Shown one piece after another: positions 5,413 through 7,454 of a stretch of 34,152 nucleotides of DNA. The position numbers and the translations under genes were made by a program. The first letter of the stretch is position 1; each line of letters begins with the position of its first letter. The DNA lies in contig CANBTQ010000006.1 of NCBI GenBank assembly GCA_947372425.1, positions 1-34,152 of the forward strand, read 5' to 3'. This DNA comes from Comamonadaceae bacterium (GTDB taxonomy: Bacteria; Pseudomonadota; Gammaproteobacteria; Burkholderiales; Burkholderiaceae_C). The notes below the pieces were generated by a model. It was not told the origin of the DNA. It did not search any database and saw only the letters and a program-made list of their open reading frames with translations.

Positions 5413-6321
5413 ATGGAAATTGCACTCGTACTACTCGTCATCGCCGTCATCTTTATCAGCCGCAGCATCAAGGTCGTGCCCCAGCAGCACGCCTGGGTCA
5501 TCGAGCGCCTGGGCAAATACCACAGCACCCTCACCCCGGGCCTGAACATCCTGGTGCCCTTTGTGGACCGGGTCGCCTACAAGCATGTGCTCAAAGAAAT
5601 CCCGCTGGACATTGCCAGCCAGGTCTGCATCACGCGTGACAACACGCAGTTGCAGGTGGACGGCATTCTGTACTTCCAGGTGACCGATGCCATGCGCGCC
5701 AGCTACGGCTCCAGCAACTACATCGTGGCCATCTCGCAACTGGCCCAGACCAGCCTGCGCTCGGTCATCGGCAAGCTCGAACTGGACAAGACCTTTGAGG
5801 AGCGCGACATCATCAACGCCCAGGTGGTGGCAGCGATTGACGAGGCCGCATTGAACTGGGGCGTGAAGGTGCTGCGCTATGAAATCAAGGACCTGACGCC
5901 ACCGAAAGAAATCTTGCACGCCATGCAGGCGCAAATTACCGCCGAGCGCGGTAAGCGCGCCCTGATTGCCGCCTCCGAGGGCCGCCGCCAGGAGCAGATC
6001 AATATCGCCACCGGCGAGCGCGAGGCCTTTATCGCCCGCTCCGAGGGTGAAAAGCAGGCCGCCATCAACCAGGCCCAGGGCCAGGCTGCCGCCATCACCG
6101 CCGTGGCCGATGCCACAGCCGGCGCGATTGAGCGCATTGCCGCCGCCATCCGCCAGCCCGGCGGCGAGCAGGCCGTGCAACTCAAGGTGGCTGAAAAAGC
6201 GGTGGAGGCCTATAGCAAGGTGGCATCCGACGCCACCACCACGCTGATCATCCCCGGCAATATGAGCGAGGTATCCACCCTGATCGCCACCGCCATGAAG
6301 ATGCTGCAAACAGGCAAGTAG
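5413..6321 (+). CDS. qmcA: SPFH/band-7 domain protein (QmcA/paraslipin-like)
   Basis: MEIALVLLVIAVIFISRSIKVVPQQHAWVIERLGKYHSTLTPGLNILVPFVDRVAYKH... and Q/A-rich coiled-coil ERGKRALIAASEGRRQEQINIATGEREAFIARSEGEKQAAINQAQGQA. Confidence 0.93.
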   Translation: MEIALVLLVIAVIFISRSIKVVPQQHAWVIERLGKYHSTLTPGLNILVPFVDRVAYKHVLKEIPLDIASQVCITRDNTQLQVDGILYFQVTDAMRASYGSSNYIVAISQLAQTSLRSVIGKLELDKTFEERDIINAQVVAAIDEAALNWGVKVLRYEIKDLTPPKEILHAMQAQITAERGKRALIAASEGRRQEQINIATGEREAFIARSEGEKQAAINQAQGQAAAITAVADATAGAIERIAAAIRQPGGEQAVQLKVAEKAVEAYSKVASDATTTLIIPGNMSEVSTLIATAMKMLQTGK

Positions 6322-6343
6322 CAAACTGTTACAGACGCTTCAT

Positions 6344-6462
6344 CCGGTGTTTACGCCGGGAGCGCATTGTCGGGTTGTGGCGAGTTAACGCCTCCCTGCT
6401 TCCTCCCTGGCAGGCCATCACCCGATGGTTTTGACCCAGCCTTTGTGCTGGGTTCTCTTTTT
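6344..6462 (+). ncRNA. Candidate structured RNA with intrinsic terminator (free sRNA or 5' UTR element)
   Basis: Manual folding: ccgg 6344-6347/ccgg 6356-6359; cgggt 6371-6375/acccg 6420-6424 enclosing ggcg 6379-6382/cgcc 6389-6392 and cctgc 6395-6399/gcagg 6410-6414; followed by the terminator-like hairpin at 6434-6462. CU-rich loop TTCCTCCCTG. Confidence 0.4.
6434..6462 (+). terminator. Rho-independent terminator-like hairpin with U-tract
   Basis: ACCCAGC (6434-6440) CTTTGT GCTGGGT (6447-6453) then TCTCTTTTT. A second hairpin GGTTCTC-TTTTT-GAGAACC (6451-6469) overlaps it. Confidence 0.6.
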
Positions 6463-6523
6463 GAGAACCATGCCAAACGCTTTGATACATGTCATGGTCT
6501 GCCGCAAACCGGCGCCCTACGCT

Positions 6524-6560
6524 TGCCCCTGTTTTCAACCCACGCCAAAGAAAAGGGGCA
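6524..6560 (+). promoter_or_regulatory. Predicted hairpin occluding the Shine-Dalgarno of the downstream Cache gene
   Basis: TGCCCCT-G-TTTT (6524-6535) pairs with AAAAGGGGCA (6551-6560); AAGGGG lies just upstream of ATG 6564. Confidence 0.45.
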
Positions 6561-6563
6561 CGT

Positions 6564-7454
6564 ATGAAAGTAATTCGTTCTGGCGCAGCCGGTCTGTGCA
6601 TGGCCTGTGGCCTGCTATTCGCCAACGCAGGCCATGCCGCCGATGCACCGGTTCCGCCCCAGTTGGGCTCGGTGGAGCGCGCCAAGGCCGGCCGGGCCAG
6701 TGAACTGCTGGATGCCGCCGTGGCCTTCCTGCGGCGCAACGGCACCGAGGCGGCTTTCCAGGCCTTCAATGACCCCCAGGGCAGTTTTGTTTACGGTCCC
6801 TACTACGTCTTTGTGGTGGACTCTGGGGGCCTGATGCGCGCCAACGGAGGCACCCAGATGTCCCTGGCTGGTGTGAATGCCCTGGACCTGCGTGACGCTG
6901 CAGGCAAGCCGTTCATCCGCGACCTGTTGGCCACTGCTGCGCTCAAGCCCACTGGATCGGTCGAATACCGCTGGCTGAATCCGGAAGACCACCGCATCGA
7001 GGTCAAGGTCAGCCTGTATGCCAAGGTGGACTCCTATGTTGTCAGCGTTGGCTACTACACACCCCGCGCCACGCGCCAGGAAGCCCAGGCACTGCTGGAG
7101 CGTGCGGTGGACTTTCTGAAGCAAGCCGGCCCGGAGCAGGCCTTTAGCGCCTTCAACAATCCGCAGGGCGGCTACATGCAGGACGACCAGTATGTGTTTG
7201 CCGTGGGCCTGGACGATGGCCGCTACCGCGCCTCGGGCGCATCGCCCCAGCTCAACGGCATGGATGTGCGGGGCATGAAAGACGCTGCCGGCACCCCTTT
7301 GTTTGAAAACATGATTAGCCTGGCCCGCAAGTCCGGCAGTGGAACGGTGGAATACGTTTGGCGCAACCCGGCCACCAATGCGGTGGAAACCAAGCACACG
7401 CTGATACAGCGTGTGGGTGATGTGTTGCTGGGCGTGGGCTACTACACGCGCTAA
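6564..7454 (+). CDS. Secreted/periplasmic protein with two tandem single-Cache-like domains
   Basis: Signal peptide MKVIRSGAAGLCMACGLLFANAGHA; two homologous halves (AVAFLRRNGTEAAFQAFNDPQGSFVYGPYYVFVVD.../AVDFLKQAGPEQAFSAFNNPQGGYMQDDQYVFAVG...), each ending VGYYT(P)R. No TM or signalling domain after the Cache units. Confidence 0.8.
   Translation: MKVIRSGAAGLCMACGLLFANAGHAADAPVPPQLGSVERAKAGRASELLDAAVAFLRRNGTEAAFQAFNDPQGSFVYGPYYVFVVDSGGLMRANGGTQMSLAGVNALDLRDAAGKPFIRDLLATAALKPTGSVEYRWLNPEDHRIEVKVSLYAKVDSYVVSVGYYTPRATRQEAQALLERAVDFLKQAGPEQAFSAFNNPQGGYMQDDQYVFAVGLDDGRYRASGASPQLNGMDVRGMKDAAGTPLFENMISLARKSGSGTVEYVWRNPATNAVETKHTLIQRVGDVLLGVGYYTR

Follow-up and report, generated by a model that had tools for sequence, protein, structure and literature searches.

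Between qmcA and a gene for a protein with two Cache stretches, the window analysed here (a stretch of 34,152 nucleotides from a Comamonadaceae bacterium, whose genus is Rhodoferax or a near relative) carries an intergenic region that was proposed in an earlier note to encode a structured, terminated RNA. The question raised by this locus is whether such an RNA is a free small RNA (sRNA) or a leader of the downstream gene, and to which kind of RNA it belongs. With a probability of about 0.8, we consider the element to be an independent, trans-acting sRNA of ~86 nt, a divergent anti-hemB paralogue that has its own promoter and blocks translation via Shine-Dalgarno pairing. The boundaries were obtained by homology and the fold by covariation, the loop of the seed hairpin is conserved, and independence from the neighbouring genes was shown; we infer transcription, the exact start, Hfq binding, the targets and their repression by the window sRNA.

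Features and fold of the RNA

The following features were assigned to the locus:

5413-6321, + strand: qmcA (SPFH/Band 7; Pfam PF01145, PF16200), upstream neighbour, outside the element
6376-6462, + strand: the sRNA, about 86 nt, start placed at ~6376-6378 and end in the U-tract
6379-6392, + strand: hairpin H0, GGCG-AGTTAA-CGCC, the 5' hairpin, outside the Rfam model (covariation, shuffle test)
6395-6414, + strand: hairpin H1, the seed hairpin, with the anti-Shine-Dalgarno-like loop UCCUCCCU at 6401-6408
6415-6428, + strand: hairpin H2, CCATC-ACCC-GATGG, a small hairpin (covariation)
6433-6462, + strand: hairpin H3 (stem 6433-6454) and U-tract, the intrinsic terminator (prediction, fold, covariation)
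6451-6469, + strand: inverted repeat GGTTCTC-TTTTT-GAGAACC, overlapping the terminator and probably incidental
6564-7454, + strand: gene of the protein with two Cache stretches (Pfam PF17200, PF08269), downstream neighbour, outside the element

The region 6322-6475 folded better than 200 of 200 shuffles (z -2.9), and the sRNA itself (6376-6462) was predicted to form four consecutive hairpins, with identical minimum free energy and centroid structures and a z-score of -4.1 against 200 shuffles. The intrinsic terminator was the sole one predicted in 6200-6600, where shuffles average 0.3. Together with the covariation of the helices described below, this bears out the earlier proposal of a structured, terminated RNA between the two genes. 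All segments named in that proposal are present, including CCGG..CCGG at 6344-6359, CGGGT at 6371-6375 and ACCCG at 6420-6424, and CCTCCC and TTCCTCCC both occur in the element.

Homologues and covariation of the helices

Alignment of divergent copies with MAFFT misplaced H1, and a four-sequence seed combined with a covariance search was used instead. The first covariance model (R1) was built from four compact paralogues from other genomes, leaving out the window copy, and it recovered this copy at 6394-6463 (51.6 bits, E 3.5e-10) as the top match in its genome, ahead of the canonical anti-hemB copy. Matches to R1 were obtained in 100 of the 103 genomes of the genus, at one to seven per genome and with canonical copies also found. 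Up to seven matches per genome were seen in G090 and G101, one locus (L147) holds tandem copies on the minus strand (1764-1833 and 2024-2100, ~190 bases apart), and weaker second matches lie near the copies of L126 and L132. Close orthologues of the window sRNA were found only six times among the 103 genomes; these agree in fold, loop and upstream blocks but differ in their neighbours, and Rhodoferax lacus is one named carrier of the sequence pattern of an orthologue.

The 41 matches aligned with R1 showed changes on both sides in 17 of 19 pairs, giving 119 such cells compared to 30 in shuffles, and this set includes a few of the weakest, chance-looking matches (L144 to L146), whose inclusion acts against the result. 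R2, the second model, includes the window copy and adds the 5' hairpin preceding the Rfam model; it matched the window at 6376-6463 with 93.5 bits, a score to which the copy itself contributes. Among the 42 copies of the R2 alignment, 96.6% of the paired cells could pair and 205 cells were double-changed (52 in shuffles), while the covariation score reached 0.632 compared to 0.162 for shuffles and at most 0.082 with the partners slid; as this alignment was fitted to the structure, the numbers favour it, but the margin is large nonetheless. Covariation was present in all four helices and exceeded every shuffle and all slid controls. All four pairs of H0, all five of H1 (97% paired) and all five of H2 had changed on both sides, and H3, the terminator, was likewise conserved with covariation. 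An independent count for the 5' hairpin gave a mean stem score of 6.06, the maximum in 100 shuffle sets being 4.71, and the H1 loop UCCUCCCU was kept in most copies. Conservation and covariation of the stems, whose absence the earlier note had named as counting against its proposal, were thus found in the related genomes.

The same alignments change the proposed architecture. The earlier note had seen a nested multibranch junction, in which a stem of 6371-6375 with 6420-6424 encloses two hairpins. The inner hairpins (6379-6392 and 6395-6414) stand, whereas the enclosing stem is not conserved and was rejected because homologues form the covarying H2 at this place, with ACCC as its loop, and because its 5' partner CGGGT precedes the putative RNA start at about 6376, where homology begins. 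In homologues, the place of H2 is taken by a hairpin, CCATC-N4-GATGG, with variants such as CCACA/TGTGG, GTCT/AGAC and CCC/GGG.

Relation to anti-hemB and other Rfam families

At gathering thresholds, the Rfam search of the window gave tRNA-Ser alone and matched no sRNA family, so that a permissive search was needed. In this search, 6393-6461 matched anti-hemB (RF02837) with 39.3 bits (E 7.3e-8), which falls short of the curated gathering cut-off of 49.5 bits; the alignment was full-length, covering model positions 1-81 of 81 and thereby the seed hairpin, the middle hairpin and the terminator. Up to E 0.1, anti-hemB was the only match in the whole window besides tRNA-Ser. The Betaproteobacteria toxic small RNA family (RF02278) scored 17.2 bits on the element, below its 50-bit cut-off, and Hrs13 (RF02631; 20.9 bits, cut-off 52) and SorX (RF02784; 16.6 bits, cut-off 46.6) were rejected as far below theirs. 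Matches to RyhB, PrrF, isrO and eukaryotic or viral families were dismissed as chance level. The earlier note could not assign the element by eye to a known riboswitch class, and no bacterial riboswitch or cis-regulatory family matched 6250-6650 up to E 10.

Of 61 genomes searched, 55 contained anti-hemB with a score exceeding the cut-off. The genome of the window is itself a carrier, with a canonical copy (C241, 54.6 bits) that precedes the gene of a membrane protein identified by eye as HemJ-like, and the window copy, which sits behind qmcA and not at the canonical location, is therefore a second, divergent one. It is a known kind of RNA in a new divergent branch, apparently an undescribed sister or paralogue of an RNA carried by most Burkholderiales. 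In canonical anti-hemB (L040, L012, L227 and others), a conserved 5' hairpin, e.g. GACGATG-TTT-CATCGTC, was observed just before the RF02837 match. The Burkholderia RNA ncS04/anti-hemB has a length of 105 nt (PMC5688073), which, set against a model of 81 positions, would be consistent with such an extra 5' hairpin.

Independence from the neighbouring genes

In many relatives, qmcA and tRNA-Ser are neighbours; in the window, the sRNA and the Cache gene (its protein apparently has no output domain) lie between them. Synteny with qmcA was rejected as a source of homologues, as the downstream regions of qmcA that were read in relatives contained no copy of the sRNA and often held a tRNA-Ser. The closest copies are found behind alaS (L002), among shikimate-dehydrogenase- and amidohydrolase-like genes (L126) and beside a tetrapyrrole-methyltransferase-like gene (L127), all named by eye from translations, and others elsewhere; a homologue of the Cache gene was absent from the other relative loci searched. 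In the relatives, the sRNA has no conserved association with the downstream gene and is independent of both qmcA and the Cache gene.

These observations bear directly on the second proposal of the earlier note, a leader RNA with alternative hairpins, which would act in cis on the Cache gene as leader or attenuator and switch between the terminator and the hairpin at 6451-6469. The sRNA does lie on the same strand, 102 bases before the Cache gene, and the two hairpins do overlap, but the alternative one is weaker (-9.7 kcal/mol compared to -12.6 kcal/mol for the terminator stem) and absent from all five closest relatives. Since, moreover, the Cache gene was not found beside other copies in the loci searched, a riboswitch match was absent and the covariation contradicts the junction, we give a leader function hardly any credence. 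The free sRNA with a CU-rich seed, which the note had offered alongside it, agrees with the covarying hairpins, the conserved terminator and own upstream region, the varied neighbours and the homology to known CU-rich sRNAs. The element is a real, structured sRNA gene and neither a riboswitch nor a leader.

Upstream region of the sRNA gene

Two features were assigned upstream of the sRNA:

6328-6354, + strand: putative activator site, with TGTTAC at 6328-6333, GTTTAC at 6349-6354 and CTTCAT at 6339-6344 between them, the TTAC cores being 21 bp apart
6365-6370, + strand: putative -10 element CATTGT (TATCTT or TACATT in orthologues), from the alignment of six orthologues

Upstream of the six orthologues, TTAC is followed in most by TTTAC or a variant 21-22 bp on, then, some ten bases further, by a -10 element resembling TATCTT, and by a TGGCGAA block. 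A consensus sigma-70 promoter pair was not found upstream of the window sRNA, and the layout is probably that of an activator-dependent promoter. The TTAC half-sites presumably resemble OmpR-type sites, which we take as a lead only. The separate hairpin that the earlier note saw at 6344-6359 is present, although it lies upstream of the putative RNA start and overlaps the putative activator site. In the repeat statistics of the upstream regions, lag 22 gave 19 matches (shuffled mean 7, maximum 17) and lag 11 gave 26 (shuffled mean 9, maximum 29); the apparent 11-bp peak was discarded, being mostly one tandem repeat in L129, without which a modest excess is left at lags 11 and 22. Two paralogues (L091 and L092) carry perfect direct repeats of GTTAATCT, spaced 11 bp, ~45-56 bases upstream of the seed hairpin, and such repeats are typical of response-regulator sites.

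The missing sigma-70 consensus could also be read in favour of an sRNA of the same type that derives from the qmcA 3' UTR, with read-through followed by cleavage by RNase E. The distance from the qmcA stop codon to the start of the sRNA is 55 bases, and there is a precedent in Bordetella S17S, which RNase E excises from a longer RNA (PMC11722255). However, the downstream regions of qmcA read in relatives are devoid of the sRNA, and orthologues at unrelated places keep the upstream blocks at a fixed distance, as a promoter would, making this origin unlikely. Still less probable is a decaying, silent copy left from a duplication of anti-hemB: the sRNA is sparse among relatives and variable in location, and its -10 element is weaker than those of the orthologues, but its helices, seed loop and terminator are all intact, and orthologues elsewhere keep the same architecture through compensatory changes. 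We thus favour an sRNA transcribed as its own gene, a reading weakened by the lack of a sigma-70 pair, the sub-cut-off Rfam score, the presence of only six close orthologues in 103 genomes and the small number of sites in a pattern search for targets.

Promoter of canonical anti-hemB and wider meaning

Outside the genus of the window, canonical anti-hemB has a sigma-E-type promoter (GGAACTT-like, ~16 bases, TCTNA or TCATA) upstream in 30 of the 35 loci that could be read from other Burkholderiales families (among L010-L019, L021, L024 and L214-L237), a count that includes related species and hence events that are not independent. The strict form GGAACT-N16-18-TCW was present in 24 of these loci, while 0.06 were expected from shuffles. 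Within the genus, none of the 17 canonical copies had the element. In the literature searched, mostly outside subscription journals, we found no statement on a sigma-E promoter of anti-hemB. Judged from these motifs, canonical anti-hemB may be an envelope-stress sRNA whose promoter changed in the genus of the window, which suggests a specific role for this RNA. Such a role would be comparable to that of MicA and RybB of enterobacteria.

More tentatively, the Rhodoferax group could possess duplicated anti-Shine-Dalgarno sRNAs (one to seven copies) with a shared seed loop and different promoters, the window copy being wired to an OmpR-type regulator and the ancestral anti-hemB having passed from a sigma-E to a sigma-70-type promoter. 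If this speculation is true, different signals would reach one type of translational brake, each through its own copy. With their differing upstream regions, the copies offer a way to test how several regulators come to control a single seed sequence. The analysis also extends an order-wide, barely characterised sRNA family by adding the 5' hairpin, by including sub-cut-off paralogues and by making up to seven copies per genome visible.

Proposed mode of action and comparison with known systems

We propose that transcription of the sRNA would start shortly after the stop codon of qmcA, at a promoter belonging to the sRNA and probably dependent on an activator, and would end at the intrinsic terminator. 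The loop of H1 may present UCCUCCCU in imitation of the anti-Shine-Dalgarno tail of 16S rRNA and, with Hfq at the U-rich 3' end, could pair with ribosome-binding sites rich in purines and so block the translation of a group of mRNAs. The terminator with U-tract and the accessible conserved seed are as in Hfq-dependent trans-acting sRNAs. In the window's own genome, AGGGAGG 4-10 bases before ATG occurs at 9 sites, compared to 2 for the reversed pattern; these few sites are compatible with targeting and show nothing by themselves. Convincing genes follow at least two of these nine sites, one for a TRAP-type permease (L212) and one for a PilT/PilU-like ATPase (L207), both named by eye.

The gene is probably expressed. 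Homologous Burkholderia RNAs are expressed, ncS27 attenuates growth and Hfq binding was reported for ncS04 (PMC5688073). The RF02278 double-hairpin RNAs (ncS03, ncS05, ncS27 and ncS62) resemble the window RNA in being CU-rich and anti-ribosome-binding-site-like, in having a terminator and in occurring in several copies per genome, and their CU-rich regions were predicted to cover ribosome-binding sites (PMC5688073); with two hairpins compared to four and a score below the family cut-off, they are a likely analogue in working mode. Hrs13 and SorX share the layout of a CU-rich element followed by a terminator, a resemblance only. In Bordetella, S17 acts directly to repress the gene of a sigma-54 activator, and pairing at the majority of its predicted sites would keep the ribosome from binding (PMC11722255). 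S17/S17S is likewise a betaproteobacterial sRNA with a terminator and a C/U-rich unpaired region over ribosome-binding sites, but it is an RNase E product of a longer RNA and is likened here by description. With anti-hemB (RF02837; Burkholderia RNA 7, ncS04), the window RNA shares the CU-rich seed hairpin UCCUCCCUG, the second hairpin, the terminator and the 5' hairpin, which falls outside the RF02837 model. It differs in the much shorter H2 and linker, in its locus and in its promoter, and it coexists with a canonical copy in the same genome.
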